Assembly: GCF_029227915.1 (NCBI RefSeq)
Contig: NC_079885.1
Coordinates: forward strand, 13,589,001-13,653,000
Direction of reading: 5' to 3'
Source of the DNA: Hydractinia symbiolongicarpus
Taxonomy: Eukaryota > Cnidaria > Hydrozoa > Anthoathecata > Hydractiniidae
Length of the DNA stretch: 64,000 nt
The position numbers and the translations under genes are program-made. The notes below the pieces were generated by a model. It saw nothing but the letters and a program-made list of their open reading frames with translations. It searched no databases and was not told where the DNA came from. Within the stretch, counting starts at the first letter, position 1. Each line of letters begins with the position of its first letter. Shown piece by piece: positions 12,321-56,725 of this stretch.

Positions 12321-12705
12321 CAGGGGCGGATTTTGACTTCGGCCACTTCGGCACTCGCCTAAGGAGAAATTTTGCCAATGAGAAAATCATGTGTATCTAA
12401 ATATAGAAATTGATTTAAAGCAACGCATAATTTTTATTATAAGCGTTTAATAAGATTCTTTTGCGCCCAGGATCCGAGGTAATATTCTTATCTCCACTCA
12501 GGAGTGTTTGCCGAGGCTCGACTCTCCTTCGATGTGCTTTGCCGAAGTACTATGGTTCTTACGGTAGTCGAACTACATTTTGCCGCATTTCGCTGACTTT
12601 GTTTCTCTCGATTCCTTTGTTTTCTGCCGTAAAAACAGTCGACTTCGGCGGCTGCCGAGGTGTGGACTTTTGGACTCTCTTAAACACCAGTATAGAAAGT
12701 GTTGC

Positions 12706-13015
12706 GGAGAGGTTGCCAAGGCAAAGGCATTAAGTACGGCACGGCAAAGGCAGGCAAGGAAATAGGAAGAGGAATCAGCAGGGGTAGGCAAGGCATGGGA
12801 GGCACAGGCAAGGGCATAGTTAGGCAGGCACCAGAAGAGGCAAAGGCATTAAGCACGGCAAGGAAAGGGCACGGCAAAGGCAGGCAAGGAAACAGAAATC
12901 AGCAAGGCAAGGCATGGAAGGCACAGGCACAGGCAATAGTAGGCAGGCAACAGAAAAGGCATAGGAAGGGTAGGCAAAGGCACGGTAAGTGCTGGCAAGG
13001 CAAGGCAGGCACCTT
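12706..13015 (+). repeat. GGCAAGG-type minisatellite in the left end of the giant element
   Basis: Degenerate short repeats built on GGCAAGGCA / GGCAAAGGCA, preceded by CCAGTATAGAAAGTGTTGCGGAGAGG-type sequence that recurs at 34.98 kb, 38.04 kb and throughout the 41-56 kb array. Open frames through it are low-complexity and not genes. Confidence 0.8.
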
Positions 13016-13019
13016 AATA

Positions 13020-13668
13020 TAGAAAATCTCTCCCGCTACAACTCAAAGATTTTTAGTAAACCGATTTTTAGTAAACCTTGTCCCTAGGGACATGTGGCGC
13101 GTAAGCAGCTATCAACTTGGTGAAATATGAAAAATGCCCCGTAAAAGGGGTTGAAACTGAGTTCCATCACCGGTCTTATTTTGTTTGATTTGAAGAAATA
13201 TGTCCCTGGACTTTTGTATGACGTATCAGAAATGGCTGAAAAAAATAAAAACGAAAAATGTTTCTTGATAAGGAAATTACTTTTTATAGGGAAGTTATTT
13301 ACCAATGTAGAAATTATATTTGAAAATTATCTGTACAGAATGTCCGTTTACGGCTGAACACCCCTGCTTCCCCTGTCCGCTTTTGTCCATCCCTAACGTG
13401 CCGAGGTGCTTTATGGATGACCCTCATTTGAAAATAAAAACATGAAAACGGAAAACTTTTAATTGTTTATCAACATAATAAATAAAATAAATATAGAGAC
13501 ATAAATACAAGTTTATTTAAATAAATACATTACTTGATAACATTTTATTGTCATTTTATATTACTAAGAATTGTGTTGTTTCAAATTAAAAAGGTCATTG
13601 TTTCTTTCCCTTGTATACAAATTTAATGTTGTTTCCCGGATATACAAATTTAATGTATATACAGATGT
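13020..13668. other. No gene recognised
   Basis: AT-rich DNA between the minisatellite and the nested TIR element. A short open frame near 13,151-13,357 lacks any motif. The last part has short direct repeats (ATACAAATTTAATGT twice near 13,616 and 13,643). Confidence 0.35.
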
Positions 13669-13673
13669 ATATA

Positions 13674-16270
13674 CAGGTGCGGATCCAGGGTTAGTCAGAT
13701 AAGTCGCGTGACTAAGTGTAAATTTGACGAAAAATGTTAGCCAAGCGAAGATGTCGACGATCCAGGCGTTGCAAACGGAGGGCGTTAAAAATTGTAATTT
13801 TTTTACGGCGAAAAGCCATGGTTCACAGCCCTCTCCAATTCGCCTATAGCGATGTTGACGTCAAAGTTGTGACGTCGCTACCATATAGACTGAGAGGGTT
13901 GCAAATTATAGCTTACAGATTTTGACTGATTCATTTTGACTAATCAGTCACCCAGTCAGTCAAAAATCAAATAGCTATGGCCCGCAACCCTCCCCATCTC
14001 ACCTAAGGGGCCTGTGACGTCAAAATCGTGACGTAATTTTCACACTCTATGCGTAGTCCAACAATATGTGGCCCGCAGCCGGCGAAGGAAATTTAGGTTC
14101 CGTACTGCGTGGTTACTGATAACCTGTTAGGCTATAGTTTTAACTCCCATCCGCCAGGATTAGTCAAAGACTCACGCCTTTTGGCTTGGATTCTTTCCGT
14201 ACTATTATTGATTATGGCTGCAGCAGATATGTTGGCGCGGGTGCTTACTGATTTAAAGTGTGATAATTTTGAATCTGTTCGTAAAATGCAAAAAGAACTT
14301 TTAGAAAGTGTTTATTCTCGAGCATTTTTGTTGTCTGGGGATATTTATTCCTTGGTTGATAAAAGTCTTCATCGGAATTCAGGTCCAGATATATACCTTC
14401 CATCTGAGGCTAGGTGTGAAGATAAAGGAATTATTGCTTTAAGGTGAGAAATATGTTTTTACTCTCCAACACACCTTGCATTTATTTAAAGGTTTTCAGT
14501 ATATCTGCTACAGAAAGATAGTTGGGGAGAGCTTTATACAACAGACACTAAAACCAAATACAAAAAGATTTAATTAGCTAATAGCTAAGGCTAATACACC
14601 TTTACGATAATTCGGAAAAAATAACACTCCATCGCAGCTTATTTTGCAATCAGAGGAGGTAAACATTACACTTTTATAAGAGTTTATTAAGGAGAAAACA
14701 CGTTTTTTCGTGATAACTTTTCTTGCCACGTTTTGTTTTTAATGAAAAGTACACATAAGTTGTATCTTATTATTATTAACGTTTCCTGAAAATTTGAAAG
14801 AAATTAATACAACGGAAGTTAAAAAACTGGAGAAAACTTTTTTCCGATATTGTAAAACGATGGAGAGCCATAGGAACGCATGTACAATTGAATTATCATA
14901 AAGGTGTATTGTTTTTGTAATATGAGCTTTGAACAGAATTTTCAGCATTGCGGAGGAATACTTTCTCAATTAATATTTGTGTTGTTATTAGAAGCAAGAA
15001 CTTGACATCTGGATAAGTAAGGTTGGTGATGAAAATAAACAACTCTTTGAATGACTATTAAGAAACAAAGTTTGTTGAGTAAAAGGTCATGGTAAAATAT
15101 ATTATTTTTAGATCCAATCCATCAGGAGACTGTCTATACAGCTCAGCATCGTTGGTATAGGCATAGGTGATAATTCTCTTGTTGATGTTTTGAGAATCTT
15201 GACATCCATAGAACTTTTCTTGCATCCTTCCTTTTATTCCAATCATCCTTGTTTTCAATTTGCTTTTAAAAACCAAAAGGCAAATATTTTTATATCTGAG
15301 AAAAGTTTATTCAGATTTTCCCTTTCCCATATTGTTTGTGATATGACTCTTTCTCCTGAGGAGGCAGTTAAAGCAGAAGCAATCTACAACTGTACCCCCA
15401 AGACATGGTTTCCTTTTCTATCAATACTTGCCTTGTCAACAGTAATAAAGAGAAAAATTAACACATTTTACCCACAATTCGGTTTGTTACAGTTTGTTAC
15501 AACTTTCTTTACACAGTGTATATTGCCACACCCATCTATTTTACCTGATGAAGATCAGTTAAAAATTTTATTTTGTTATGAAGATATTGTTAAGTCTGGT
15601 GTAGACTTCAAGCCAAATCATTACGTTCCCCTTTTTCCAGGTTGCAACTTTCGTAACTGAAAGTTGCATTTTCCTATTTCAGCATGCAAAAAGCAGTAAA
15701 AAGCCCCTCTTAATTCTTCTTTTAAAGTTCAAACGAAACTTGAGTTTAGCCCTATGAATAAACAAATATATCTGAACAAATACATGGGTTGAGGTGTGTT
15801 TGTATCATATCACATGTACGTATATTTCATCTTCATTATCCTGATCTTTCCATATTCTTATTGTTTTTGTTATTATTGTGTTTTATTTTGCTGTCCATGG
15901 CTGGTGTGATCATTTGATGCACCTAGTCATGCTGATGAAGCCTGATATTGGCAGAAACAGCAGGAGTTTATAAATAATGAAATATATTCACAATTGTCTC
16001 ACTTTATTATAGTTAATCCCTGTTAATTTTAGTGGTTTTATCTATCTAAAATAAGACGTGTAAGACGGAGATTTGATTCTTATAAAAGATGTTCTTAGCA
16101 GATTTTGTTATAGCTTAGCGTTTCTTTTGGTCAATTTTATTAATAACTAGATAAATCGGAAGACAATTTTTCGCGATTTTTGTACCCGCAAAGCTTAAAA
16201 TTTAGCCCCCAGCTGCTAAATTCAAGACTCAGTCTTGACTAAGTCTTGAAAAAGTCTGGATCCGCCCCTG
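13674..16270. mobile_element. Nested 2.6-kb TIR element carrying an OTU-like gene
   Basis: Left end CAGGTGCGGATCCAG, right end (inward) CAGGGGCGGATCCAG: 15 bases with one difference. The flanking 5-bp direct repeat is ATATA (13669-13673 and 16271-16275), low in complexity. The termini match those of the 44-kb element, so both may use the same transposase. No transposase is seen inside; the cargo is a decayed OTU-like gene. Subterminal GTGACGTC-type motifs occur near 13,860-14,035. Confidence 0.65.
14214..15660 (+). pseudogene. OTU-like cysteine protease gene, two exons, frame-broken
   Basis: Exon 1 (ATG about 14,214 to 14,441) encodes a helical N-terminus with RKMQKELLESVYSRAF and ends in KGIIAL-R. 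A GT-AG intron runs to 15,111. Exon 2 opens with RSNPSGDCLYSSASLV, in which GDC is the OTU nucleophile motif, but meets a TAG near 15,160. The next frame carries on with GDNSLVDVLRILTSIELFLH, then TWFPFLSILALSTVI and the C-terminal FKPNHYVPLF, whose HYVPL fits the OTU catalytic histidine. One indel near 15,150-15,165 therefore separates the catalytic Cys from the His. OTU proteases cleave ubiquitin in cells and are common cargo of large eukaryotic transposons. The fold call rests on these motifs only. Confidence 0.5.
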
Positions 16271-19974: not shown

Positions 19975-22900
19975 TCATGATTGGGATGTGCATATAATAC
20001 ATAAGCAATTTGCAGATGGCGAAGGACAAACTGCATCTTCAATATCATCATCACAATAATTGTCAAGTTCTTTCAACAAGTTAATATATTTTTCCATAGT
20101 GATATTGAATTTTTTGACAGTTTGATTCGATAATGCTTTCAGTCTTTTCTCTTCCTCTTGTCTAGCTTTCATACGGGGATGTGTATTAATGTACAACAGT
20201 CGTTCTTGTGTAATTGGTTCAAGAAGTGCCCAATTTCTTTCTTTTTCGCATCTTGAGAATGCAGTGTAAGCTGTACCAAGGTTGTTTTTTTCCATCTGAA
20301 TGGATTGTTGTAACTTTATACGCATATGAGTGGCAGTTTTACCATCTCCAATTGACATACCCTGACTTTTGGCAATAGTTATTGCATATCCCGGCATTAA
20401 CGGCAGGCCATTTCTGCTGCAACAATTAGACTCACATCGGCCTTCAACAGCAGTAATTGGTATCCATGTCGGATGTTCTTGAATCCATGACGGCCCTTTA
20501 TAATTTGGGAAATCGACTACAACAGCTATCGGAAATTCAGGTGGTGACATATTTGGTGAATAAAGGATTGCAATTACTTTTCCCATGGCACCATTATTTA
20601 GACCAAGGCCTGTAAGACCCTTTTGGTTCTTGGTAAGGATTACAGTTGCACCAACTGCCATTAAAGATCTTAGTGGTATTTGACCCAGTTGCTTATCAGT
20701 TAAAGAGTGATGTTTACCACAACCTCTTGATGGAATAACAGCAACTGGCACACCAAGGTTAGCTAATTTATTATGGTTTTCTTCATTAACTTCATTCCAT
20801 GTTTCCATTAATGCAAGGACGCGACCATGCAAAAAGTTACATTTTTCTGGTTGGGGCAAAGCATCTTCATAACGACTATTTATATCTTGCCAGTCTTGTT
20901 GAGTAATCGATCCATTGCGTATTCTAAGTAGTCGCTGTAGAAGGGCCAACTGATCTGGTCCTTGGCGCATTGTTTCTGTAAGAACAATAACATCTTGAAA
21001 TGAGCGATAGATTGCATAACCAGCAAAGTTGATTGTGGAATCATCATGTTTCGGCGGCTGATGTAAATCCAAAGCACGAATTGGTCCAAGTTGACCAAGG
21101 TCCCCAAAGAAATTGACAGTTGGTACACCTCCATAATAATTATCAAAGTCTCCTGTTGCCTCACATAATCTGTGGCTGCACCAAGCCACTAGAAGCTTCG
21201 ACTGCATGCTTCGTTCATCAATATTAAGTTGAATCAATTTCAGTTCATTATTTTCATGCATGCCTGTATATTTTCTTAGCTTTCTTAGAGCTACATCACC
21301 CAAAGGATAGTCAGAAAGCTGGACAGAATTTAAATTCTTATCTTTTTTTAGTTTGTGTGGTGGTGGAGTCATTGAGTGTATAGTGCGACCATTAGGTATG
21401 AGGACTGATGCTGCACCAGTTGGGGCCAAGTTCATAACTGCAGAATTTCGTTTAAAAATACGGCGAACAATTCTGGTGAGTGCGGTAATGATAAATGTTT
21501 TCCCAACACCAGCTGTTCCTTGTATTAATAAACGTAATTGCTGGCTACCTGTTGGCAAAGTTCCTTTTGCGACTTGTAATAAATGCTCAAGATTTATTCC
21601 AATTACTGTTCTCTGTAATTCATTAGCATTCAAGATGTTTATTTGCGGTAAGGTACAATCATCGGCATGCTGCAATTCATTTCTTTCTGCTTCTTCAGAT
21701 ATAGATTGTAACCATGTGTCAGCATTAATTGGCCATTGACTACCAAAACTTTGAATTGCATAATTATTCCAATCAAACATAGGCCCTCCATTGGGAAGAA
21801 CCTGTTGTACATTCGGCTCACTGATATCAGCAACATGGTGCTTAGCAATATCTCTCATTATTGATCTGCCTATGTTTATTTCTGCAATGGCGGAATTTTG
21901 GGAACATTGAGAAATTGCATCTGTGTATTGTGACGATTGATCTGAAGACTGAGTATCGGTTTGAATATTGATTACATTAGTGTGATTTCGTGTTCTCTTG
22001 CTCTTTTTATCAAAAGATTGTTTAGCCTCTTTCAATGAATCAATTAATATTGATGGACATTCTTCAGTTTGAACAAGGGAAGCCAAAGCAGCAGCAAATG
22101 ACTCATGTTGTCCCTTCAATTCTTCGGTATTATGCCACGTTCCAACAGAAAATATAATGAGCATAGCTTTTGCATAGTCCTCAGTAACAGGCCAAACAGG
22201 TTTTGTAGATATTCCTGTAAAAACTGGCACGTGATCTACTTTGCAGGTACAATTACATTTCTTGCTCCAGTTCCATAATGATATTTCTGGCTCAGTTTCT
22301 CTACGCTTATCACTCAAGTATTTATCCAATGTGCTACTCTTTGTAACGGTTCCATCTTCACCAGTCGTATCCAAGGCTCGGAAGCCACTGATGCCAATGT
22401 ATCGAAAATTCCTGGTACATCTAATCAAACGACCACCACTATTAATGAAATCCGCCGCAGCACCTGGTACATCTACTAGACCAGCAATTTTTTGAAGTAG
22501 GCGTTGAGCCAAATTTTTTACAGTGCTTCCATCAGCAGTGTTTTCAATCAGATGACGATAAACATGTACCAAATCTTCGGTTGAAGCAGCCCCTTTGCAA
22601 GCATAACTAGCAATGTATTTTTGTAGAGCCATAAGGTCCTGATCGATAATGGGTTGACTGTCACAATTTGCTAGCCAACTAAGTAGGCGTGTTTTTACAT
22701 GCATCATCAAGCGAGGATGATCGCGTGGTCCCTCATATCTGGGATGTTCCCCTTCTGTTATGACAGCATTAAAAGGATGAATCTCTTTACCACTTGTTTT
22801 TTTGGTTTGTGGATTAAGATCACCAAAATGAAAGCGACAGTACTTCTGTGGAGCAGTATCTTTTTTATTCTTTCGGTGATAACGCAAACAATTAGAATTA

Positions 22901-23457
22901 CACTTATGGAGGCCAATCCTGTTCACAAGATGGGTATGTTGCTCTTTTATACCACCTTTATGACTAGCGACATCCAAAAGTTCTTGTGCCAGTGGGTTAT
23001 GTTCTGGAGGAGCTTGCGTCCCTTCAGGTCTTGCCCATTGATCTTTGTTTGGAACCCAAGTTCTAATTCCAGAAGTATCTATAATTTCATTTCCCCCAGC
23101 AGGATGCAGTGAAGTGAACATGGGTGAAAAAATCAAATCACTGTCTTCATTTGTTGTTTGTAACCAATTTTGAAGTTCTTGTGCTGCAGGTTTTAATGCT
23201 TGTGAGTCTGCATTATCAGACAAGCTATCCATGATAGTTTTTACTTTTCGGGCATGTTTAGATGACGAAATTATCGCGTGTCCATGTATCTCACCTCTAC
23301 TTTTAGCAAATTCATATCGCAACCAATAGTCATCATATTGAAATACTTCCTTGTTGACTGTGGCAAAGTAATTTATAGTCCTTGCATCAAAATACTGCGT
23401 GACTATATGAAGATTTTGTAGAATCATTTCCCGCTTGAATTTATTATCGCTTTCCAT
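19975..23457 (-). CDS. Helitron Rep (HUH-Y2) and PIF1-like helicase
   Basis: 1160 residues. The Rep part has the HUH motif RGEIHGHAI (H58, H60), which binds the metal, a Cys/His cluster (HKCNSNCLRYH...YCRFHFG, about 184-212) and the two catalytic tyrosines in KYIASYACKG (Y281, Y285), which nick and join DNA in rolling-circle transposition. The PIF1-like SF1B helicase begins with Walker A GTAGVGKT (647-654), then APTGAAS, then FFGDLGQLGP, LTETMRQ, and C-terminal GYAITIAKSQGMS and TAFSRC. All catalytic motifs are present. The Rep domain lacks its first strand, which lies at the end of the preceding frame (CAEFHWKPLHEL), so a frame change is required to make a whole Rep. The ATG at 23,457 may be an internal methionine and not a true start. 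Confidence 0.85.
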   Translation of the reverse strand: MESDNKFKREMILQNLHIVTQYFDARTINYFATVNKEVFQYDDYWLRYEFAKSRGEIHGHAIISSSKHARKVKTIMDSLSDNADSQALKPAAQELQNWLQTTNEDSDLIFSPMFTSLHPAGGNEIIDTSGIRTWVPNKDQWARPEGTQAPPEHNPLAQELLDVASHKGGIKEQHTHLVNRIGLHKCNSNCLRYHRKNKKDTAPQKYCRFHFGDLNPQTKKTSGKEIHPFNAVITEGEHPRYEGPRDHPRLMMHVKTRLLSWLANCDSQPIIDQDLMALQKYIASYACKGAASTEDLVHVYRHLIENTADGSTVKNLAQRLLQKIAGLVDVPGAAADFINSGGRLIRCTRNFRYIGISGFRALDTTGEDGTVTKSSTLDKYLSDKRRETEPEISLWNWSKKCNCTCKVDHVPVFTGISTKPVWPVTEDYAKAMLIIFSVGTWHNTEELKGQHESFAAALASLVQTEECPSILIDSLKEAKQSFDKKSKRTRNHTNVINIQTDTQSSDQSSQYTDAISQCSQNSAIAEINIGRSIMRDIAKHHVADISEPNVQQVLPNGGPMFDWNNYAIQSFGSQWPINADTWLQSISEEAERNELQHADDCTLPQINILNANELQRTVIGINLEHLLQVAKGTLPTGSQQLRLLIQGTAGVGKTFIITALTRIVRRIFKRNSAVMNLAPTGAASVLIPNGRTIHSMTPPPHKLKKDKNLNSVQLSDYPLGDVALRKLRKYTGMHENNELKLIQLNIDERSMQSKLLVAWCSHRLCEATGDFDNYYGGVPTVNFFGDLGQLGPIRALDLHQPPKHDDSTINFAGYAIYRSFQDVIVLTETMRQGPDQLALLQRLLRIRNGSITQQDWQDINSRYEDALPQPEKCNFLHGRVLALMETWNEVNEENHNKLANLGVPVAVIPSRGCGKHHSLTDKQLGQIPLRSLMAVGATVILTKNQKGLTGLGLNNGAMGKVIAILYSPNMSPPEFPIAVVVDFPNYKGPSWIQEHPTWIPITAVEGRCESNCCSRNGLPLMPGYAITIAKSQGMSIGDGKTATHMRIKLQQSIQMEKNNLGTAYTAFSRCEKERNWALLEPITQERLLYINTHPRMKARQEEEKRLKALSNQTVKKFNITMEKYINLLKELDNYCDDDIEDAVCPSPSANCLCIICTSQS

Positions 23458-25304
23458 TTGCTGCCTGACATATCTTCATTCAAATTGTTTATTAACGCAT
23501 GATACTTAATAAGTAGTTCATGCAATGGTTTCCAATGAAATTCTGCACAACTGTTGGTATCAAAATATGCTGGTAAATCGCCAAATTCATTTCGTCTAAA
23601 AAACAACATGGCATCCAATTTTTTTTTTTGGTCTCTCCAGTACGGATCGGTATTAACCAGATTTTTTCCAATACTAATAATTTTTCGTGGAACTGAATCA
23701 TCATCATTTTGTAAATTATCTCTCAGTTCAGCAATTTTGAGATGAGCATCATTTAATTGTTGGGAAACAAGAAAGCTACCCTGCTGCAATGCTTGCATTC
23801 GCAAACGCATATTTAATAAGAAAAATTTCAAGTATGGATGACGCGCTACACGATTATCAGAACAATAATATATATGTTCGATGTATTCTTCAAAATTAAT
23901 TTTACTCAATCTTGGAACAGTTAAGTCACAATTTCTATTAATAAAAACAGTTGGGTATGCCATAGTAAAAAACCCAGGAGTTTTTAATTCTCGAATTGGC
24001 TGTTCTCGGGTATATTCCAAATTTGCATTCGCAATTGTGCCATGTTCAAGAGCTTGATTAACTGCATCTTCAGAACCCAAGAGCTTCTGCAGTATTGTTC
24101 GCAAGTCTTTGTCAGCATCTTTAGGTTCAACCGGACAAACTAAACCAGAACGGGTTATACTTTCATCGTCTTCAGGTAAGTTTTGTTGAAATTGATTTTC
24201 AGCAGGACCCTTGTCTCCTTCTGATATTATATTTGGTAATTCCACAACTGGCATATCAGGTAATTCGGAACGCATTTCTGGTAAATTTTGAATGCGGTCG
24301 TATTTTATAGAGACATCCTTATAGTACTCATTCGGTAGGAACTGGAAGTAGCGTCCTTTTAAAGGTTTGTCAATGTGATCAGAGCCATTGTATTGGTGTT
24401 TATTATTAGTATCTTGATACTCAACACCCCCTTCTGGGTACCCAAAACACAGTCCCCGTAATGCACTTTCAACTTTAACCCTTTGTACAGTATACTGTTG
24501 GATTGAATTTTTACTTCCTTTCTTTTTTATAACCACTATTCCAATTTCTGATGGTAATGATGGCAATTCGGTAGCAATTTGCATTCTTTGAGGAAAACTG
24601 ATGCAATGACCTTTTGATGCAAGCATGCCATACCGCAGGAGGTGTATATTCATAATGACAGTGATACGACGAATTAATGCAACTTCTAGTATAGTCAAAT
24701 TTTGGAGATACGGTGGTACTGGTAAAAAATGCATATCATTATGGCGGATATTATCTTGCAGTGGGCCCAAATCGTCATCATCTACTGAGAGTATACCTGA
24801 AAATCTAGCAGGTGTTTTCACATTTTTTTTGAAACGACTAAGACTTTCCTTATGACATCTGCCACACCTTCCATCACTGAAAATCTTCCAAGGCTTAATG
24901 GTAATTGGTTTTGTTTCGTTTTTCGCAGTAGGACTGATTGCAGGTGTAGCATGAAATACTGGTCGGGTTTCACAACATGTTTTGCAGGTTGCTAAACTAT
25001 GTAACTTCTCACCTTCCTCAAACCGCACTACAGCAGCCACAACATTAGGGTTTTGATGAATCGTGGAGATCTCATTTCCATAAATTTCTTCTTTATTACT
25101 GAACTGGTTATCTGTTACAATTGTTGCCTCTGACTGTGTGGTTGTTAAATTAGTTTGTATTGACTGCTGTGTACTTGGTAAATTTATAGGTACTGACTGT
25201 TGTGTGGTTAGTAAATTTGTTAGTACTGACTGCGCAATTGTTAAATTTGTTAGTATCGACTGTGTTGTTGCTAGGGAGTATGTAGTTGGTACATTAGTTG
25301 ACAA
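23424..25304 (-). CDS. Helitron middle frame: DUF6570-like zinc segment and Helitron-like N-terminal domain
   Basis: 626 residues. The N-terminus has four or more imperfect copies of a 13-residue unit (SVLTNL-x-TTQQ type), probably a flexible linker. Then come CKTCCETRPVF and GRCGRCHKESL, a zinc-binding pattern like that before Helitron Rep proteins, LPVPPYLQNLTILEVALIRR, and the Helitron-like N domain (FFTMAYPTVFINRNCDLTVP, HPYLKFFLLNMRLRMQA, FGDLPAYFDTNSCAEFHW). The frame ends in the middle of the Rep domain; homology goes on in the frame starting at 23,457. At the other end the frame is open upstream of the first ATG (KTAVTLQSIAHNHGSILSTN) to an A6 run near 25,350, where it meets the OTU frame. 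The coding sequence was probably once continuous. Confidence 0.75.
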   Translation of the reverse strand: MSTNVPTTYSLATTQSILTNLTIAQSVLTNLLTTQQSVPINLPSTQQSIQTNLTTTQSEATIVTDNQFSNKEEIYGNEISTIHQNPNVVAAVVRFEEGEKLHSLATCKTCCETRPVFHATPAISPTAKNETKPITIKPWKIFSDGRCGRCHKESLSRFKKNVKTPARFSGILSVDDDDLGPLQDNIRHNDMHFLPVPPYLQNLTILEVALIRRITVIMNIHLLRYGMLASKGHCISFPQRMQIATELPSLPSEIGIVVIKKKGSKNSIQQYTVQRVKVESALRGLCFGYPEGGVEYQDTNNKHQYNGSDHIDKPLKGRYFQFLPNEYYKDVSIKYDRIQNLPEMRSELPDMPVVELPNIISEGDKGPAENQFQQNLPEDDESITRSGLVCPVEPKDADKDLRTILQKLLGSEDAVNQALEHGTIANANLEYTREQPIRELKTPGFFTMAYPTVFINRNCDLTVPRLSKINFEEYIEHIYYCSDNRVARHPYLKFFLLNMRLRMQALQQGSFLVSQQLNDAHLKIAELRDNLQNDDDSVPRKIISIGKNLVNTDPYWRDQKKKLDAMLFFRRNEFGDLPAYFDTNSCAEFHWKPLHELLIKYHALINNLNEDMSGSKWKAIINSSGK

Positions 25305-26623: not shown

Positions 26624-27940
26624 GATGAATTTGTTTCTACCAAATGGTTGTTGTCAGGTATACCTTTTCTGCTATACCTATAGCCTAGCTATATACGCCA
26701 AAATACAGGACAGAGCAGGGATAAACAGTAGGCAAATCACAAATGCACCTCAGGATAAAGCCAGGAAAAAACACACAAAAAATATAAAAATATAAATAAA
26801 CAGAATCTACTGAAAATGCACCTATTGAAACACGAATGGAATTATTAAATAATAATACTTATCCAATAATCCAGTGAGTTCAATTTAATACTATGTCAGC
26901 AAACTGTCCCTTTTGACTGCTAACTTTTTGGCAAACTTCTAGCAAGCAAGCAAACACGCTCCAGCAAAATTCCAGAGGGTTTGAAAAAAAAAAAATTCAA
27001 CCGCGAAATGAAGGTTTACTTTTTGTCTTTGTGTTCCAGACAATTTATGCTACTTTTAGTTGAAACTTTTTTGAAAAACCGAGCCATCACGTGTTCTCTT
27101 TTGTCCAATAAAAACAAAGAGGGAATAAAAACAAAGAGGGAAAAAGAAAGAGGTCTTTTGCCTTGGTCCAAACACAATATCCTGATGGTTAATGACATTG
27201 TATTTTGTTTATAATCTAACGAATCAGAATGCTCTTGCATCTAGTAAACAAGCATGATTACTGGCGTCGTTTTCATGCCCGTAGGTTTAGAAATGTCGAT
27301 TTTTTGTCGTATTAATGGTGGCGTTGGTGATGCACTTTACTTCATACTTTACTTCATACTTTGGAAAGTATATTGATAGCAATTTATGGGCCAGGCCAAC
27401 TTTTGACATGGCGTATTTGCATACATCAAGACCTTATATTTAACTTAACTAACTCCAATAAAGAGGAAGAACTGAACTGCTGCAGCTTTCTTTGGCGTAT
27501 TCTTGTATGTGTATAGCTAGCAAGCAAGCAAGCTGAGGTTTAATGAGTAATGCATGGAAAGTTTCTTCTAGGTATCAAAAACAACACTTCACTTTGCAAC
27601 TCTTAGTGCAAGACCAGATCGTTGAGTAGTTGAAGACTTGCGTGTATATTATTGGAGACCTTTTTTTAACTAGATTGTGTGCATATAATGACTAGCTAAT
27701 TAATTATATATCACTAAAGATATCAAAATATAACATTTAGCTCAGTGCAGTGTAATGTTATATAACTGCTGGCAAGCGTTTTTTTTTTAAGCTATTTGTT
27801 TACGCTTCAAGATAATTTTCAATTGAATTATTGCAACTTGACCTGTTACATGGAGAGGCAGGATCTTTGGCTGGTCTTTGAGGCAGTCATGATTAAAATA
27901 TTTTGTAATATATTTAAAATAATTATATGATTTAAGTTAT
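26624..27940. other. No gene recognised; probable Helitron 5' flank
   Basis: AT-rich DNA with purine-rich short repeats near 27,115-27,150 and the direct repeat CTTTACTTCATA at 27,335-27,360. The Helitron 5' end should lie near its left part, but I cannot point to it. Confidence 0.35.
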
Positions 27941-29321: not shown

Positions 29322-29637
<316 letters not shown>

Positions 29638-39385: not shown

Positions 39386-39776
39386 TGAATGTATATACAA
39401 AACACTACAGGTAAATATTATATACACTTAGAAATTTACAGCACAAATAAACCTTTTTTTAAGAAACGCTCAGTTAAGCTACAAGTGACTGTGTTATCTG
39501 ACATTGAACGTCTAATGAAATGATTAATAAGATCTGTAAACTGTGCACACATTTAGGTGGAGCGCTTAAGTAAAGGTATATATATGCAATATGTCGTAAA
39601 TGAGGGTAGCAACACTAACGTGGTTCAGGTGTAGCAATATTCCATGGACCAGTGACATATATTTTTTAGAACCTGATGCATATTTTAGAAAACGTTAAAC
39701 ATAAAAAGAAGCAAGAATGGTATCTGGCATTGGGTCAAGTAAGGGAAGTGGAAAGTATTTCTTCATCAGGTAATTG

Positions 39777-39889
<113 letters not shown>

Positions 39890-44900: not shown

Positions 44901-45884
44901 CAAATTTTGTGCACAATTGTAGCTAGCATAAAATTATCAATGTTGCTAGCATAAAATTAGATATTTGTGCTGACAAAATAGCTAGCTAGCTAGCATAGAA
45001 AAATTCTTTCAGACAGATTTTCTAGCTTTTGCTAGCTATATGGCACTGTTTGTTCTCTTTTTTATTCGAGCTAGCTAACTCTTCTTAAAGTGTAGTTAGC
45101 TAGCTATAGCTATATATGCTATCTAAGTTTTAATATTATCCCAGCTAAGTCGGCAGTTTTATACTAGCTAGCTTTAGGTGTGAGTGAGGCTAGAAAGGGG
45201 CTCATTACATGTAAAAAATAGTGATATACTAGCTAACATACCCTTTCTTCGTTTTCTTGAAAATGCCCTTCCGTCCATTACGTCCAACAAACCAATATGG
45301 CCATCAACGCAATTTTCATTTCAAGCGCTATGTATGTGAGACAATGTCACGTGATATTAGTAAGAGTGACCGTGGCTAAAGCCGTATGCCGACCTGATCT
45401 CAACTGGAAACGGCATGGTCTCGACGAACCAGATTTTCACGGAAGAAATGACCATAAAAAATATTTGGGTAAGTGGGTTAAAAATCGGACGTTTTGAAAT
45501 TTGATGTACTAGGAGAAAACGTGGAAATTCGATACGCTCTAATATATTTATGGGAACGAGGAAAATAGCTTCGCTGCGCTCCGCAATAATTTACTCTTCC
45601 TATTGTTATTGCCTCGCGGTAGCCAGTCTGTTTAATGGGTTCGGCCAGCTTCGGCCAACTGCAATTCTGAAGTTCTTTCTGATCCAACATGTCTTCTGAT
45701 GGGAGCTTGCGGGATCGGGTTGTGCTTGCTGTAACTAGTATAGAAAGTGTTGCGGAGCGTAGGACTGAGTCCCCTAGGTTCGCAAGCGAAAAATTTTAGA
45801 TGCCCCTTTCGGTTGAATTGTATAACGAATCGTATAAAAACAAAGTTCCCACGTGCTCCATGGTAATCGATCAAACTGTTTCAT
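41988..45884 (+). repeat. Higher-order repeat, first copy (3,897 bp)
   Basis: Three array units that recur as a block. Rare variants (AACAAACC near 45,287, TTTCCCTGAT near 44,681, GAAAGGGGC near 45,195) return at exactly +3,897. Confidence 0.9.
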
Positions 45885-48800
45885 GCACAATTGTAGCTAG
45901 CATAAAATTATCAATGTTGCTAGCATAAAATTAGATATTTGTGCTGACAAAATAGCTAGCTAGCTAGCATAGAAAAATTCTTTCAGACAGATTTTCTAGC
46001 TTTTGCTAGCTATATGGCACTGTTTGTTCTCTTTTTTATTCGAGCTAGCTAACTCTTCTTAAAGTGTAGTTAGCTAGCTATAGCTATATATGCTATCTAA
46101 GTTTTAATATTATCCCAGCTAAGTCGGCAGTTTTATACTAGCTAGCTTTAGGTGTGAGTGAGGCTAGAAAAGGGCTCATTACATGTAAAAAATAGTGATA
46201 TACTAGCTAACATACCCTTTCTTCGTTTTCTTGAAAATGCCCTTCCGTCCATTACGTCCAACAAGCCAATATGGCCATCAACGCAACTTTCATTTCAAGC
46301 GCTATGTATGTGAGACAATGTCACGTGATATTAGTAAGAGTGACCGTGGCTAAAGCCGTATGCCGACCTGATCTCAACTGGAAACGGCATGGTCTCGACG
46401 AACCAGATTTTCACGGAAGAAATGACCATAAAAAATATTTGGGTAAGTGGGTCAAAAATCGGACGTTTTGAAATTTGATGTACTAGGAGAAAACGCGGAA
46501 ATTCGATACGCTCTAATATATTTATGGGAACGAGGAAAATAGCTTCGCTGCGCTCGGCTCGCTGGCGCTCCCCTTCACTACGCTCCGCAATAATTTACTC
46601 TTCCTATTGTTATTGCCTCGCGGTAGCCGGTCTGTTTAATGGGTTCGGCCAGCTTCGGCCAACTGCAATTCTGAAGTTCTTTCTGATCCAACATGTCTTC
46701 TGATGGGAGCTTGCGGGATCGGGTTTTGCTGTAACTAGTATAGAAAGTGTTGCGGAGCGTAGGACTGAGTCCCCTAGGTTCGCAAGCGAAAAATTTTAGA
46801 TGCCCCTTTCGGTTGAATTGTATAACGAATCGTATAAAAAACAAAGTTCCCACGTGCTCCATGGTAATCGATCAAACTGTTTCATCTTCGCCTTGATGAA
46901 ACATTTCCTGGGGTTTCCGCATTAGCAGTACCGTAGTGTGTTCCGGACGCAATATTACTTGCACCAGGGACATATTTTCTTTAGAACCTGATGTATCGAA
47001 AATGCTAAAAAAGGTTAAACGGAACAAGAATGGTGTTCGGGTCAAGTTACAAAAACGGAAAATATTTCTTTATCGTGAAATTATTTTCTGGTTTAAAAAA
47101 TTATGAGATTTCCCGAACAGGAAATTTTTTCATTTTTCTGAAATTTGTTCTGATTGAACCCAAAAAATGAATTAAATATATATATATTTGAAGATTTTCA
47201 GTAGGCGTTGATGATTGCATGAGAACCGCTTGTCAGAATTTAAAACGCCTCAGTAATAACAAATGTATATACATGTTGAAAAAGTTTCCCCGATACATAT
47301 TTATTGAAATAATTTCCGTTTCTGTAACTTGAGCCGCACTGGTGTAAGCTCGAGCTAGCTAACTATTCTTAAAGTAGTTAGCTAGCTATAGCTATAAATG
47401 CTATCTAAGTTTTAATATTATCCCAGCTAAGTCGGCAGTTTTATACTAGCTAGCTTTAGGTGTGAGTGAGGCTAGAAAAGGGCTCATTACATGTAAAAAA
47501 TAGTGATATACTAGCTAACATACCCTTTCTTCGTTTTCTTGAAAATGCCCTTCCGTCCATTACGTCCAACAAGCCAATATGGCCATCAACGCAATTTTCA
47601 TTTCAAGCGCTATGTATGTGAGACAATGTCACGTGATATTAGTAAGAGTGACCGTGGCTAAAGCCGTATGCCGACCTGATCTCAACTGGAAACGGAATGG
47701 TCTCGACGAACCAGATTTTCACGGAAGAAATGACCATAAAAAATATTTGGGTAAGTGGGTCAAAAATCGGACGTTTTGAAATTTGATGTACTAGGAGAAA
47801 ACGCGGAAATTCGATACGCTCTAATATATTTATGGGAACGAGGAAAATAGCTTCGCTGCGCTCGGCTCGCTGGCGCTCCCCTTCACTACGCTCCGCAAAA
47901 AGCAATGATATTTGCGAATGTAAAAGTCTTTATAAGATATTGAAAGATAAAATAACAGAGTTTCCTGATTTTGGAACATTAGATCATTGGAGAAAGATTG
48001 AGAAAAAGTTGTTAAGCAACTAGTATAGAAAGTGTTGCGGAGCGTGGGACTGAGTCCCCTAGGTTCGCAAGCGAAAAATTTTAGATGCCCCTTTCGGTTG
48101 AATTGTATAACGAATCGTATAAAAACAAAGTTCCCACGTGCTCCATGGTAATCGATCAAACTGTTTCATCTTCGCCTTGATGAAACATTTCCTGGGGTTT
48201 CCGCATTAGCAGCACCGTAGTGTGTTCCGGACACAATATTACTTGCACCAGGGACATATATTTAGAACCTGATGTATCGAAAAAAAAGGTTAAACGGAAC
48301 AAGAATGGTGTCCGACATCAGTGTACAGTTCGGGTCAAGTTACAAAAACGGAAAATATTTCTTTATCGTGAAATTATTTTCTGGTTTAAAAAATTATGAG
48401 ATTTCCCGAACAGGAAATTTTTTCATTTTTCTGAAATTTGTTCTGATTGAACCCAAAAAATGAATTATATGTATATATATTTGAAGATTTTCAGTAGGCG
48501 TTGATGATTGCATGAGAACCGCTTGTCAGAATTTAAAACGCCTCAGTAATAACAAATGTATATACATGTTGAAAAAGTTTCCCTGATACATATTTATTGA
48601 AATAATTTCCGTTTCTGTAACTTGAGCCGCACTGGTGTAAGCTCACCGGCAGTACCTCTATATAAACATTAATCATCAGTGGACGAGACCACGTACTATT
48701 TGCAAAATATGTGACTATAGCTATAGCTATGTTTTTTTGCTGTCTTTTCTAAACTTTTTGGTTCTTGGTTTTTGATATATAAAATTGGCAGAGTCAACAA

Positions 48801-49781
48801 ATTTTGTGCACAATTGTAGCTAGCATAAAATTATCAATGTTGCTAGCATAAAATTAGATATTTGTGCTGACAAAATAGCTAGCTAGCTAGCATAGAAAAA
48901 TTCTTTCAGACAGATTTTCTAGCTTTTGCTAGCTATATGGCACTGTTTGTTCTCTTTTTTATTCGAGCTAGCTAACTCTTCTTAAAGTGTAGTTAGCTAG
49001 CTATAGCTATATATGCTATCTAAGTTTTAATATTATCCCAGCTAAGTCGGCAGTTTTATACTAGCTAGCTTTAGGTGTGAGTGAGGCTAGAAAGGGGCTC
49101 ATTACATGTAAAAAATAGTGATATACTAGCTAACATACCCTTTCTTCGTTTTCTTGAAAATGCCCTTCCGTCCATTACGTCCAACAAACCAATATGGCCA
49201 TCAACGCAATTTTCATTTCAAGCGCTATGTATGTGAGACAATGTCACGTGATATTAGTAAGAGTGACCGTGGCTAAAGCCGTATGCCGACCTGATCTCAA
49301 CTGGAAACGGCATGGTCTCGACGAACCAGATTTTCACGGAAGAAATGACCATAAAAAATATTTGGGTAAGTGGGTTAAAAATCGGACGTTTTGAAATTTG
49401 ATGTACTAGGAGAAAACGTGGAAATTCGATACGCTCTAATATATTTATGGGAACGAGGAAAATAGCTTCGCTGCGCTCCGCAATAATTTACTCTTCCTAT
49501 TGTTATTGCCTCGCGGTAGCCAGTCTGTTTAATGGGTTCGGCCAGCTTCGGCCAACTGCAATTCTGAAGTTCTTTCTGATCCAACATGTCTTCTGATGGG
49601 AGCTTGCGGGATCGGGTTGTGCTTGCTGTAACTAGTATAGAAAGTGTTGCGGAGCGTAGGACTGAGTCCCCTAGGTTCGCAAGCGAAAAATTTTAGATGC
49701 CCCTTTCGGTTGAATTGTATAACGAATCGTATAAAAACAAAGTTCCCACGTGCTCCATGGTAATCGATCAAACTGTTTCAT
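45885..49781 (+). repeat. Higher-order repeat, second copy (3,897 bp)
   Basis: The junction at 45,884/45,885 joins GTTTCAT to GCACAATTG with at most one base of homology. I saw no difference from the first copy at the positions compared. Confidence 0.9.
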
Positions 49782-52700
49782 CTTCGCCTTGATGAAACAT
49801 TTCCTGGGGTTTCCGCATTAGCAGCACCGTAGTGTGTTCCGGACACAATATTACTTGCACCAGGGACATATATTTAGAACCTGATGTATCGAAAAAAAAG
49901 GTTAAACGGAACAAGAATGGTGTCCGACATCAGTGTACAGTTCGGGTCAAGTTACAAAAACGGAAAATATTTCTTTATCGTGAAATTATTTTCTGGTTTA
50001 AAAAATTATGAGATTTCCCGAACAGGAAATTTTTTCATTTTTCTGAAATTTGTTCTGATTGAACCCAAAAAATGAATTATATGTATATATATTTGAAGAT
50101 TTTCAGTAGGCGTTGATGATTGCATGAGAACCGCTTGTCAGAATTTAAAACGCCTAACTAATAACAAATGTATATACATGTTGAAAATGTTTCCCCGATA
50201 CATATTTATTGAAATAATTTCCGTTTCTGTAACTTGAGCCGCACTGGTGTAAGCTCACCGGCAGTACCTCTATATAAACATTAATCATCAGTGGACGAGA
50301 CCACGTACTATTTGCAAAATATGTGACTATAGCTATAGCTATGTTTTTTTGCTGTCTTTTCTAAACTTTTTGGTTCTTGGTTTTTGATATATAAAATTGG
50401 CAGAGTCAACAAATTTTGTGCACAATTGTAGCTAGAACAAGGTATGTGAGAGTAGAATTATCTCACTCACTGTGTAGTATATATATGTAGCTAGCTAAAG
50501 CTAGCTAGCAAAAGCTAGAAAATCTGTCTGAAAGAATTTTTCTATGCTAGCTAGCTAGCTATTTTGTCAGCACAAATATCTAACTTTATGCTAGCAACAT
50601 TGATAATTTTATGCTAGCTATATGGCACTGTTTGTTCTCTTTTTTATGCGAGCTAGCTAACTCTTCTTAAAGTAGTTAGGTAGCTATAGCTATATATGCT
50701 ATCTAAGTTTTAATATTATCCCAGCTAAGTCGGCAGTTTTATACTAGCTAGCTTTAGGTGTGAGTGAGACTAGAAAGGGGCTCATTACATGTAAAAAATA
50801 GTGATATACTAGCTAACATACCCTTTCTTCGTTTTCTTAAAAATGCCCTTCCGTCCATTACGTCCAACAAGCCAATATGGCCATCAACGCAACTTTCATT
50901 TCAAGCGCTATGTATGTGAGACAATGTCACGTGATATTAGTAAGAGTGACCGTGGCTAAAGCCGTATGCCGAACTGATCTCAACTGGAAACGGCATGGTC
51001 TCGACGAACCAGATTTTCACGGAGGAAATGACCATAAAAAATATTTGGGTAATTGGGTCAAAAATCGGACGTTTTGAAATTTGATGTACTAGGAGAAAAC
51101 GCGGAAATTCGATACGCTCTAATATATTTATGGGAACGAGGAAAATAGCTTCGCTGCGCTCGGCTCGCTGGCGCTCCCCTTCACTACGCTCCGCAATAAT
51201 TTACTCTTCCTATTGTTATTGCCTCGCGGTAGCCAGTCTGTTTAATGGGTTCGGCCAGCTTCGGCCAGCTTCGGCCAACTGCAATTCTGAAGTTCTTTCT
51301 GATCCAACATGTCTTCTGATGGGAGCTTGCGGGATCGGGTTGTGCTTGCTGTAACTAGTATAGAAAGTGTTGCGGAGCGTAGGACTGAGTCCCCTAGGTT
51401 CGCAAGCGAAAAATTTTAGATGCCCCTTTCGGTTGAATTGTATAACAAATCGTATAAAAAACAAAGTTCCCACGTGCTCCATGGTAATCGATCAAACTGT
51501 TTCATCTTCGCCTTGATGAAACATTTCCTGGGGTTTCCGCATTAGCAGTACCGTAGTGTGTTCCGGACGCAATATTACTTGCACCAGGGACATATTTTCT
51601 TTAGAACCTGATGTATCGAAAATGCTAAAAAAGGTTAAACGGAACAAGAATGGTGTTCGGGTGAAGTTACAAAAACGGAAAATATTTCTTTATCGTGAAA
51701 TTATTTTCTGGTTTAAAAAATTATGAGATTTCCCGAACAGGAAATTTTTTCATTTTTCTGAAATTTGTTCTGATTGAACCCAAAAAATGAATTAAATATA
51801 TATATATTTGAAGATTTTCAGTAGGCGTTGATGATTGCATGAGAACCGCTTGTCAGAATTTAAAACGCCTCAGTAATAACAAATGTATATACATGTTGAA
51901 AAAGTTTCCCCGATACATATTTATTGAAATAATTTCCGTTTCTGTAACTTGAGCCGCACTGGTGTAAGCTCGAGCTAGCTAACTATTCTTAAAGTAGTTA
52001 GCTAGCTATAGCTATATATGCTATCTAAGTTTTAATATTATCCCAGCTAAGTCGGCAGTTTTATACTAGCTAGCTTTAGGTGTGAGTGAGGCTAGAAAAG
52101 GGCTCATTACATGTAAAAAATAGTGATATACTAGCTAACATACCCTTTCTTCGTTTTCTTGAAAATGCCCTTCCGTCCATTACGTCCAACAAGCCAATAT
52201 GGCCATCAACGCAATTTTCATTTCAAGCGCTATGTATGTGAGACAATGTCACGTGATATTAGTAAGAGTGACCGTGGCTAAAGCCGTATGCCGACCTGAT
52301 CTCAACTGGAAACGGAATGGTCTCGACGAACCAGATTTTCACGGAAGAAATGACCATAAAAAATATTTGGGTAAGTGGGTCAAAAATCGGACGTTTTGAA
52401 ATTTGATGTACTAGGAGAAAACGCGGAAATTCGATACGCTCTAATATATTTATGGGAACGAGGAAAATAGCTTCGCTGCGCTCGGCTCGCTGGCGCTCCC
52501 CTTCACTACGCTCCGCAATAATTTACTCTTCCTATTGTTATTGCCTCGCGGTAGCCGGTCTGTTTAATGGGTTCGGCCAGCTTCGGCCAACTGCAATTCT
52601 GAAGTTCTTTCTGATCCAACATGTCTTCTGATGGGAGCTTGCGGGATCGGGTTTTGCTGTAACTAGTATAGAAAGTGTTGCGGAGCGTAGGACTGAGTCC

Positions 52701-54628
52701 CCTAGGTTCGCAAGCGAAAAATTTTAGATGCCCCTTTCGGTTGAATTGTATAACGAATCGTATAAAAAACAAAGTTCCCACGTGCTCCATGGTAATCGAT
52801 CAAACTGTTTCATCTTCGCCTTGATGAAACATTTCCTGGGGTTTCCGCATTAGCAGTACCGTAGTGTGTTCCGGACGCAATATTACTTGCACCAGGGACA
52901 TATTTTCTTTAGAACCTGATGTATCGAAAATGCTAAAAAAGGTTAAACGGAACAAGAATGGTGTTCGGGTCAAGTTACAAAAACGGAAAATATTTCTTTA
53001 TCGTGAAATTATTTTCTGGTTTAAAAAATTATGAGATTTCCCGAACAGGAAATTTTTTCATTTTTCTGAAATTTGTTCTGATTGAACCCAAAAAATGAAT
53101 TAAATATATATATATTTGAAGATTTTCAGTAGGCGTTGATGATTGCATGAGAACAGCTTGTCAGAATTTAAAACGCCTCAGTAATAACAAATGTATATAC
53201 ATGTTGAAAAAGTTTCCCCGATACATATTTATTGAAATAATTTCCGTTTCTGTAACTTGAGCCGCACTGGTGTAAGCTCACCGGCAGTACCTCTATATAA
53301 ACATTAATCATCAGTGGACGAGACCACGTACTATTTGCAAAATATGTGACTATAGCTATAGCTATGTTTTTTTGCTGTCTTTTCTAAACTTTTTGGTTCT
53401 TGGTTTTTGATATATAAAATTGGCAGAGTCAACAAATTTTGTGCACAATTGTAGCTAGCATAAAATTATCAATGTTGCTAGCATAAAATTAGATATTTGT
53501 GCTGACAAAATAGCTAGCTAGCTAGCATAGAAAAATTCTTTCAGACAGATTTTCTAGCTTTTGCTAGCTATATGGCACTGTTTGTTCTCTTTTTTATTCG
53601 AGCTAGCTAACTATTCTTAAAGTGTAGTTAGCTAGCTATAGCTATATATGCTATCTAAGTTTTAATATTATCCCAGCTAAGTCGGCAGTTTTATACTAGC
53701 TAGCTTTAGGTGTGAGTGAGGCTAGAAAAGGGCTCATTACATGCAAAAAATAGTGATATACTAGCTAACATACCCTTTCTTCGTTTTCTTGAAAATGCCC
53801 TTCCGTCCATTACGTCCAACAAGCCAATATGGCCATCAACGCAATTTTCATTTCAAGCGCTATGTATGTGAGACAATGTCACGTGATATTAGTAAGAGTG
53901 ACCGTGGCTAAAGCCGTATGCCGACCTGATCTCAACTGGAAACGGAATGGTCTCGACGAACCAGATTTTCACGGAAGAAATGACCATAAAAAATATTTGG
54001 GTAAGTGGGTCAAAAATCGGACGTTTTGAAATTTGATGTACTAGGAGAAAACGCGGAAATTCGATACGCTCTAATATATTTATGGGAACGAGGAAAATAG
54101 CTTCGCTGCGCTCGGCTCGCTGGCGCTCCCCTTCACTACGCTCCGCAATAATTTACTCTTCCTATTGTTATTGCCTCGCGGTAGCCAGTCTGTTTAATGG
54201 GTTCGGCCAGCTTCGGCCAACTGCAATTCTGAAGTTCTTTCTGATCCAACATGTCTTCTGATGGGAGCTTGCGGGATCGGGTTGTGCTTGCTGTAACTAG
54301 TATAGAAAGTGTTGCGGAGCGTAGGACTGAGTCCCCTAGGTTCGCAAGCGAAAAATTTTAGATGCCCCTTTCGGTTGAATTGTATAACGAATCGTATAAA
54401 AACAAAGTTCCCACGTGCTCCATGGTAATCGATCAAACTGTTTCATCTTCGCCTTGATGAAACATTTCCTGGGGTTTCCGCATTAGCAGCACCGTAGTGT
54501 GTTCCGGACACAATATTACTTGCACCAGGGACATATATTTAGAACCTGATGTATCGAAAAAAAAGGTTAAACGGAACAAGAATGGTGTCCGACATCAGTG
54601 TACAGTTCGGGTCAAGTTACAAAAACGG

Positions 54629-56358
54629 AAAATATTTCTTTATCGTGAAATTATTTTCTGGTTTAAAAAATTATGAGATTTCCCGAACAGGAAATTTTTT
54701 CATTTTTCTTAAATTTGTTCTGATTGAACCCAAAAAATGAATTATATATATATATATATATTTGAAGATTTTCAGTAGGCGTTGATGATTTCATGAGAAC
54801 CGCTTGTCAGAATTTAAAACGCCTCAGTAATAACAAATGTATATACATGTTGAAAAAGTTTCCCCGATACATATTTATTGAAATAATTTCCGTTTCTGTA
54901 ACTTGAGCCGCACTGGTGTAAGCTCGAGCTAGCTAACTATTCTTAAAGTAGTTAGCTAGCTATAGCTATATATGCTATCTAAGTTTTAATATTATCCCAG
55001 CTAAGTCGGCAGTTTATTACTAGCTAGCTTTAGGTGTGAGTGAGGCTAGAAAAGGGCTCATTACATGTAAAAAATAGTGATATACTAGCTAACATACCCT
55101 TTCTTCGTTTTCTTGAAAATGCCCTTCCGTCCATTACGTCCAACAAGCCAATATGGCCATCAACGCAATTTTCATTTCAAGCGCTATGTATGTGAGACAA
55201 TGTCACGTGATATTAGTAAGAGTGACCGTGGCTAAAGCCGTATGCCGACCTGATCTCAACTGGAAACGGCATGGTCTGGACGAACCAGATTTTCACGGAA
55301 GAAATGACCATAAAAAATATTTGGGTAAGTGGGTCAAAAATCGGACGTTTTGAAATTTGATGTACTAGGAGAAAACGCGGAAATTCGATACGCTCTAATA
55401 TATTTATGGGAACGAGGAAAATAGCTTCGCTGCGCTCGGCTCGCTGGCGCTCCCCTTCACTACGCTCCGCAACTAGTATAGAAAGTGTTGCGGAGCGTGG
55501 GACTGAGTCCCCTAGGTTCGCAAGCGTAGTGAAGGGGAGCGCCAGCGAGCCGAGCGCAGCGAAGCTATTTTCCTCGTTCCCATAAATATATTAGAGCGTA
55601 TCGAATTTCCGCGTTTTCTCCTAGTACATCAAATTTCAAAACGTCCGACTTTTGACCCACTTACCCAAATATTTTTTATGGTCATTTCTTCCGTGAAAAT
55701 CTGGTTCGTCCAGACCATGCCGTTTCCAGTTGAGATCAGGTCGGCATACGGCTTTAGCCACGGTCACTCTTACTAATATCACTTGACATTGTCTCACATA
55801 CATAGCGCTTGAAATGAAAATTGCGTTGATGGCCATATTGGCTTGTTGGACGTAATGGACGGAAGGGCATTTTCAAGAAAACGAAGAAAGGGTATGTTAG
55901 CTAGTATATCACTATTTTTTACATGTAATGAGCCCTTTTCTAGCCTCACTCACACCTAAAGCTAGCTAGTATAAAACTGCCGACTTAGCTGGGATAATAT
56001 TAAAACTTAGATAGCATATATAGCTATAGCTAGCTAACTACTTTAAGAATAGTTAGCTAGCTCGAGCTTACACCAGTGCGGCTCAAGTTACAGAAACGGA
56101 AATTATTTCAATAAATATGTATCGGGCAAACTTTTTCAACATGTATATACATTTGTTATTACTGAGGCGTTTTAAATTCTGACAAGCGGTTCTCATGAAA
56201 TCATCAACGCCTACTGAAAATCTTCAAATATATATATATATATAATTCATTTTTTGGGTTCAATCAAAACAAATTTAAGAAAAATGAAAAAATTTCCTGT
56301 TCGGGAAATCTCATAATTTTTTAAACCAGAAAATAATTTCACGATAAAGAAATATTTT
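54629..56358. repeat. Large inverted repeat (838-bp arms, 56-bp spacer)
   Basis: The left arm 54,629-55,466 is repeated in reverse at 55,523-56,358 with few differences. The inverted arm interrupts an otherwise normal unit: CGCAAGCG on its left and ATTTTAGATGCCCC on its right are adjacent in other units. Short homologies (AGCG and ATTTT) lie at the two joints. Confidence 0.9.
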
Positions 56359-56725
56359 AGATGCCCCTTTCGGTTGAATTGTATAACGAATCGTATAAAA
56401 AACAAAGTTCCCACGTGCTCCATGGTAATCGATCAAACTGTTTCATCTTCGCCTTGATGAAACATTTCCTGGGGTTTCCGCATTAGCAGTACCGTAGTGT
56501 GTTCCGGACGCAATATTACTTGCACCAGGGACATATTTTCTTTAGAACCTGATGTATCGAAAATGCTAAAAAAGGTTAAACGGAACAAGAATGGTGTTCG
56601 ACTCAAGTTACAAAAACCCCCAGCTGTTTTATCACGCGCAATTTTTGCTACGCAAAAATTGCGCGTGGGCTTCGCTTCGATTCGCAAATCCGCCTAAGGA
56701 GAAAAAAATACTGTATCCGCCCCTG
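56359..56725 (+). repeat. Right end of the giant element, with subterminal hairpin
   Basis: Begins as a normal array unit (AGATGCCCCTTTCGGTTG), then after GTTACAAAAACC becomes unique. At 56,633-56,667 lies a perfect hairpin with a 16-bp stem (CACGCGCAATTTTTGC) and a 3-base loop. Then come CGCCTAAGGAGAAA and the terminal GTATCCGCCCCTG. Confidence 0.75.

Follow-up and report, generated by a model that had tools for sequence, protein, structure and literature searches.

The 64,000-nucleotide window analyzed here comes from Hydractinia symbiolongicarpus (contig NC_079885.1, positions 13,589,001 to 13,653,000; G000:C11:13589001-13653000 in the 481-Mb, 76-contig genome that we searched). Within it, the 44.4-kb interval 12321-56725 is a well-bounded single insertion of one cut-and-paste transposon, which by its sequence features is hAT5-type. 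The interval is loaded with Helentrons, a second hAT-like element, and a Penelope-like element, and it appears to be one copy that has become oversized, not a novel type of giant transposon.

Boundaries of the insertion

The exact motif CAGGGGCGGAT is present at both termini of the interval (12321-12331 on the plus strand and 56715-56725 on the minus strand), and AAACA lies directly 5' of 12321 and directly 3' of 56725, as claimed in the first-pass annotation of this DNA. When one mismatch was allowed, the window contained four matches to CAGGGGCGGAT, compared to 0.15 expected by chance; a third exact match, at 16260-16270 (minus), forms the terminus of a nested relative. The features that define the boundaries are as follows.

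12316-12320, no strand: left AAACA target duplication (window sequence and empty-site comparison)
12321-12686, plus: left terminus of the outer hAT5-type element; identity to a relative, L026, 98.9% (371 bp aligned)
56615-56725, plus: right terminus of the same element; identity to L026 over its final 62 bp, 96.8%; the start at 56615 was set by eye from shared letters
56726-56730, no strand: right AAACA target duplication (window sequence and empty-site comparison)

The annotation had also proposed that a RecQ-like helicase exon rejoins in frame (PSVC + LELN) when the interval and one AAACA are removed. The joined 128-amino-acid helicase query matched a 178-amino-acid H. symbiolongicarpus protein, P0001, at 100% identity and 100% coverage, and of 213 candidate helicase relatives of P0001 in the genome, 150 were scored. 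Twenty loci (L029 to L048) were set against the joined flanks of the window; two of them (L038 and L042) were the window's own halves, and seven (L041 and L043 to L048) were too divergent for an exact check, L041 aligning across the junction at 70.6%. Eleven rows, corresponding to 10 genomic places since L039 and L040 overlap, displayed a single AAACA at the junction within an uninterrupted exon. Because removal of the interval and one AAACA yields a sequence that is present elsewhere, 12321-56725 represents one insertion accompanied by a 5-bp duplication. The uninterrupted exon for which a genome search had been suggested was thus found at 10 other places, and these empty sites support the proposal of one element with terminal inverted repeats, one target duplication, and one interrupted exon.

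A hAT5-type family with a transposase-bearing member

The exact CAGGGGCGGAT motif occurs 883 times genome-wide, compared to 9 occurrences of the reversed control. Motif regions were taken from the first 100 places listed, all on contig C1; 20 regions were fetched, 19 of which had two facing motifs at most 10 kb apart, and the motifs in the other (L028) faced away from each other. A perfect 5-bp duplication flanked 18 of the 20 end pairs in these 19 regions; about 15 are independent, and three repeat the flanks of another pair. One region, L020, contributed two pairs, and its two cross-pairings were left out of the count. There, an element at 279-9731 contains a nested one at 4504-8957, both with CAGGGGCGGAT ends and clean 5-bp duplications (TTCAC and AAGAT).

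The relative L026 (G000:C1:26469230-26474502, 5273 bp) bears a transposase. Its 967-amino-acid frame matched DUF4371 (1.8e-21) and Dimer_Tnp_hAT (1.3e-4) and had 229 homologues among 7989 scored sequences; 52 kDa repressor-like and ZMYM1-like proteins are named among the 120 listed, and the listed matches include relatives in Hydractinia, Hydra, and octocorals. L026 and the window have in common the left end, the pieces 754-851, 850-999, and 998-1119 (L026 coordinates), and the right 62 bp; by eye, 850-1119 appears to hold a first transposase exon. In the alignment, L026 1120-5511 has no match anywhere in the window, whose copy is nonautonomous: of the hAT, only the termini and the 5' portion as far as L026 position 1119 survive, a recognizable backbone of about 794 of 5273 bp in alignment coordinates. 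At the start of the L026 transposase frame (1399-4299), a GNCLY-like stretch is, by eye, reminiscent of an OTU motif; Pfam reported no OTU domain there.

hAT elements usually generate 8-bp target duplications, and CAGGG-type ends are typical of them. The terminal inverted repeats of the outer element are short and of the CAGGG type, and 5-bp duplications were found both in the window and in its family. hAT families with 5-bp duplications are termed hAT5 (Kapitonov and Jurka 2007, cited in PMC12730594), and the outer element is assigned to this type by sequence.

Anatomy of the interior

The larger part of the interior is a 28.4-kb Helentron array, which contains the following features.

12687-41121, minus: Helentron array, in the hAT at L026 666-754; unit 1 with the Rep/helicase (RepHel) and OTU genes, units 2 and 3 without them
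13674-16270, no strand: nested second hAT-like element with an ATATA duplication; L003, L004, and L006 match from 14761 or 14837 to 16270
19978-25352, minus: Helentron Rep/helicase frames (PIF1, Helitron_like_N, DUF6570)
25274-26653, minus: OTU-like cysteine protease frame of the Helentron (domain match)
29464-33676, minus: Penelope-like element lying in a TA run of Helentron unit 1, which makes the edges approximate; part of the element is tandemly repeated (1613 bp at 99.9%)
34964-38025, minus: Helentron unit 2, edges approximate
38026-41121, minus: Helentron unit 3, with a 5' terminus missing from the other two units

The interval had been predicted to carry a Helitron, a Penelope-like element, an OTU element, and a multi-exon gene. 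The first two are present, as is the OTU frame, but the latter is not a separate element: it adjoins RepHel, an arrangement described for Helentrons (PMC4067079, PMC6431247). No separate multi-exon gene was identified in a scan that covered part of the frames of at least 120 codons. The Helentron with RepHel and OTU is apparently autonomous. Pfam reported no apurinic/apyrimidinic (AP) endonuclease domain in the Rep/helicase frames scanned, and since the AP endonuclease of strict Helentrons was not found, Helitron2, whose members likewise lack this domain (PMC4067079), is a possible name for the interior elements. The 725-amino-acid Penelope-like frame had 2473 homologues among 7992 scored; it had no match in Pfam, and neither of two Penelope-like frames had one in NCBIfam. 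The combination of GIY-YIG and reverse transcriptase is the mark of Penelope-like elements, and one listed relative of the 725-amino-acid frame, P0014, carries PF01541 (GIY-YIG). The interval 12321-16270, delimited by exact motifs, is ruled out as the real element because 13674-16270 is complete and has its own duplication.

Besides this array, the interior comprises about 15 kb in which short Helentrons alternate with duplicated hAT pieces.

41122-41222, plus: hAT backbone, L026 754-851 (alignment to L026)
41223-55471, minus: ten short Helentrons of 0.86-1.57 kb, each retaining both ends, with hAT pieces between them (alignments)
55472-56614, no strand: inverted and truncated Helentron pieces (alignments)

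The pieces between the short Helentrons correspond to L026 850-999 (seven times) and 998-1119 (twice). All ten short Helentrons start with ACTAGTATAGAAAGT and finish with CTCCGCA on the plus strand; nine of them were compared and are 93.9-100% alike. A 3898-bp tandem duplication (41987-45884 and 45884-49781) is exact (100%) and hence either very young or an assembly error. The canonical Helitron end is CTRRT. The Helentrons at hAT positions 851 and 998 end in CTAGT on their own strand, have inverted GCGGAGCGTAG near both ends, and lie between A and A on the plus strand, that is, between T and T on their own. Comparison with intact sisters indicates insertion between two T residues without duplication at both sites, although the junctions read equally well as a 2-bp AA duplication; a T-T target, subterminal inverted repeats, and OTU genes are described for Helentrons (PMC4067079).

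The first-pass annotation had treated the ends and the interior as one repeat family. This is ruled out: the ends align to the hAT element L026, the tandem repeats are Helentrons plus duplicated hAT pieces, and even the repeats adjoining the ends (12688-13003 and 56349-56617) consist of Helentron rather than hAT terminal sequence. The anatomy of the interval does bear out its proposal that a small element grew through nested, tandem, and inverted additions and kept its ends.

The Helentron load among sister copies

A 440-bp left-end query yielded 699 candidates, 40 of which, the window included, were scored. The junction with the 28-kb array was seen in none of the 39 other scored copies, and none of these extends past query base 372. 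In 38 of the 39 (the other being L026), the first 1.25 kb was examined, and BLAST (E up to 1e-5) detected Helentron sequence there in none. No interruption is present at the sites 666-754, 851, 998, and 1119 in 24, 29, 20, and 19 of these 38 sisters, respectively; in the remaining sisters, the alignment to L026 stops before the site via deletion or divergence. Identity to L026 is at least 98.7% in 17 of the 38 and 87.6-96.2% in the other 21. Of 12 sisters checked for a right end at the expected position, 6 had one there, giving element sizes of 2574, 2940, 3261, 3564, 5249, and 5344 bp, and all six are flanked by a duplication (five of 5 bp and one of 6 bp). As far as examined, the Helentron load is private to the window copy among these copies. 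Other loci with CAGGGGCGGAT ends do carry 5-bp duplications (18 of 20 pairs), as had been anticipated, but the expected shared interior junction occurs in none of the 39, and the notion that the 44-kb unit transposed gained no second locus with the same cargo among the 40 scored. Two sister hATs, L063 and L064 (G000:C1:27088760-27095597), lie 5.6 kb apart in the same orientation and have identical 20-bp flanks, which suggests a local tandem duplication of hAT plus flank.

The host element

The exon that received the hAT belongs to a larger repeated element.

6618-57185, minus: host element around the hAT, about 6.2 kb without the insert, with TAG...CTA termini; a RecQ-like helicase in two exons is encoded on one strand and DUF6589 pieces on the other

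By eye, this element is flanked in the window by a 9-bp duplication, ATATGAATA, at 6609-6617 and 57186-57194; together with the hAT, it forms an outermost shell of 50.6 kb. Three loci (L049, L051, and L052) match window 6618-57185 except for the interval and some indels, with identities of 97.7-99.1% in pieces longer than 400 bp and 95.7-100% in shorter ones. As read from the fetched sequence, L049 and L051 have TAG...CTA ends and 9-bp duplications, AGGAGTTCG and AGCTTTATG. Because the exon sits in a repeated element with 9-bp duplications, the hAT lies in another transposon, not in a host gene. The exon had been taken for that of a host gene, which was not borne out, and disruption of a host RecQ gene is ruled out by the exon's presence within the repeated element at 10 or more other places.

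The copies in L049 (441-7024) and L051 (182-6908) are about 6.6 kb long. L051 contains exons for DEAD and Helicase_C; its opposite strand has three DUF6589 frames, one of them below the curated cutoff, and the DUF6589 pieces are a possible candidate for the transposase. The window copy of the helicase has further lesions, such as a solo 70-bp insertion at 10926-10995, within the exon; this insertion is 98.6% like the host-element end at 57116-57185 and has no counterpart in the copies compared there. Academ elements make target duplications of 3-4 bp. The 9-bp duplication does not match this length, as the name AcademH would require, and a literature search for Academ together with DUF6589 returned no match; the host element may be a helicase-bearing transposon with a duplication length unlike that of Academ. 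Helicase-bearing Academ and Kolobok elements exist (PMC10799480). Outside the element, reverse transcriptase frames are located at 1971-5294 and 59974-61710, one with a PHD finger and a subthreshold endonuclease match (long interspersed nuclear element [LINE]-like) and the other with a subthreshold RVT_1 match.

How the element probably grew

We consider the following account, taken as a whole, to be probable. A hAT5-type element of about 5.3 kb inserted into the helicase exon of another transposon, generating the 5-bp duplication that the empty sites reveal. Helentrons in the same orientation would have inserted between T residues in the first 1.1 kb of the hAT, at 666-754 (the one with RepHel and OTU), 851, and 998, with a likely fourth site at about 1119; the sites at 851 and 998 are directly apparent against intact sisters, and features of the family point to a rolling-circle pathway. 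Homologous recombination between near-identical Helentrons may then have duplicated the trapped hAT pieces, produced the exact 3.9-kb tandem duplication and the inversions, and removed most of the backbone plus the rest of the transposase gene. The second hAT and the Penelope-like element entered the Helentron part, an order that the anatomy shows. Growth most likely took place at the present location, the simplest account of a load that is private among the copies examined. Since the outer ends are intact, hAT transposase from a sister may still be able to act on the composite. All components and processes are of known kinds; the case is unusually clear, but no new category is needed.

Several observations weigh against this account. 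Three certain and a probable fourth Helentron site, all in the same orientation, fall within about 1.1 kb of one copy, as against none in 38 sisters; the 6.2-kb host element yielded no Helentron, and a single match, 74% over 133 bp, lies outside it. Such clustering exceeds the expectation from independent insertion in place, and local Helentron reinsertion or loading before the move may account for it; it is conceivable that Helentrons reinsert near their donor in one orientation, making the hAT an array that carries and multiplies its pieces. In addition, the left junction was scored in 40 of 699 candidates, and L019 and L026 have no target duplication. If the hAT had acquired its load at another locus and a sister's transposase had then moved the 44-kb composite, or a smaller one already loaded, whole into the exon by cut-and-paste, both intact ends, the clean duplication, and the confinement of the Helentron sites to the hAT would be accounted for, and the unique junction would be compatible as well, since cut-and-paste leaves no copy behind. 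We nevertheless regard this course of events as unlikely, given that no second locus with the junction exists among the 39 other scored copies and that the seven sisters with both ends found measure 2.6-5.3 kb.

An assembly artifact, either a wrong array, for example, falsely duplicated repeats, or a wrong joining of the ends, appears quite improbable. The exact 3898-bp tandem duplication and the near-identical 3.06-kb units are where assemblers err, and confidence in the array's copy number is lower than in the outer boundaries; however, the window contains no N, and the two ends, one of left and one of right type, belong to a single subfamily, share one duplication, and match the empty sites, making a false join unlikely. 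The same pairing of ends and the precise empty sites contradict two separate events, be they two hAT insertions or a rearrangement that brought unrelated left and right ends together, and we give this explanation hardly any credence; the third exact CAGGGGCGGAT at 16260-16270, which could speak for it, marks the end of the nested element at 13674-16270, which has an ATATA duplication of its own.

Implications and comparison with known systems

On the favored account of growth in place, a transposon of small size can retain both termini and yet grow about 8-fold since a burst whose closest members are about 99% alike, and insertions of Helentrons can give rise to tandem arrays in which part of another transposon is duplicated. 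The locus is a clean case because the order of its layers can be read: first the host element (9-bp duplication), next the hAT (5-bp duplication and paralogous empty sites at 10 places), then the Helentrons, and finally the second hAT and the Penelope-like element. The maximum size of a hAT that is still moved becomes a testable question. Were loading before the move true instead, a hAT5-type transposase would have moved a composite of tens of kilobases that includes Helentron, second hAT, and Penelope-like sequences, and the hAT would be a shuttle for other transposons; to our knowledge, this would be the largest hAT movement known. Narrow literature searches of titles and abstract openings retrieved no hAT of comparable size, which is no proof of absence, and a similarly narrow search for hATs combined with nested insertion, Helitrons, and tandem arrays turned up one maize paper.

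Giant eukaryotic transposons span tens of kilobases, carry extra genes, and are giant as families. The window copy resembles them in its length and extra genes but represents a single oversized member of a family whose other members are small (for a review of giant eukaryotic transposons, see PMC6431247). It resembles the hAT5 group in its 5-bp duplications and in the transposase of its sister L026, with DUF4371 and a hAT dimerization region, but at 44.4 kb it far exceeds the seven measured sisters (2.6-5.3 kb), and it lacks a transposase. With Helentrons and HINEs, as described in PMC4067079 and for oyster Cg_HINE in PMC7492417, the interior elements share RepHel and OTU, the T-T target, subterminal inverted repeats, and an association with tandem repeats, Helentron-borne tandem repeats having been described in oyster (PMC7492417); here, in contrast, several copies lie within one hAT, have apparently recombined, and carry hAT pieces in tandem. 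Repeats make up about half of each Hydractinia genome (PMC11067881). As in ordinary nested transposon clusters, insertions lie within insertions, here at four levels; what sets this locus apart is that its outer element is terminally complete and has demonstrable empty sites.

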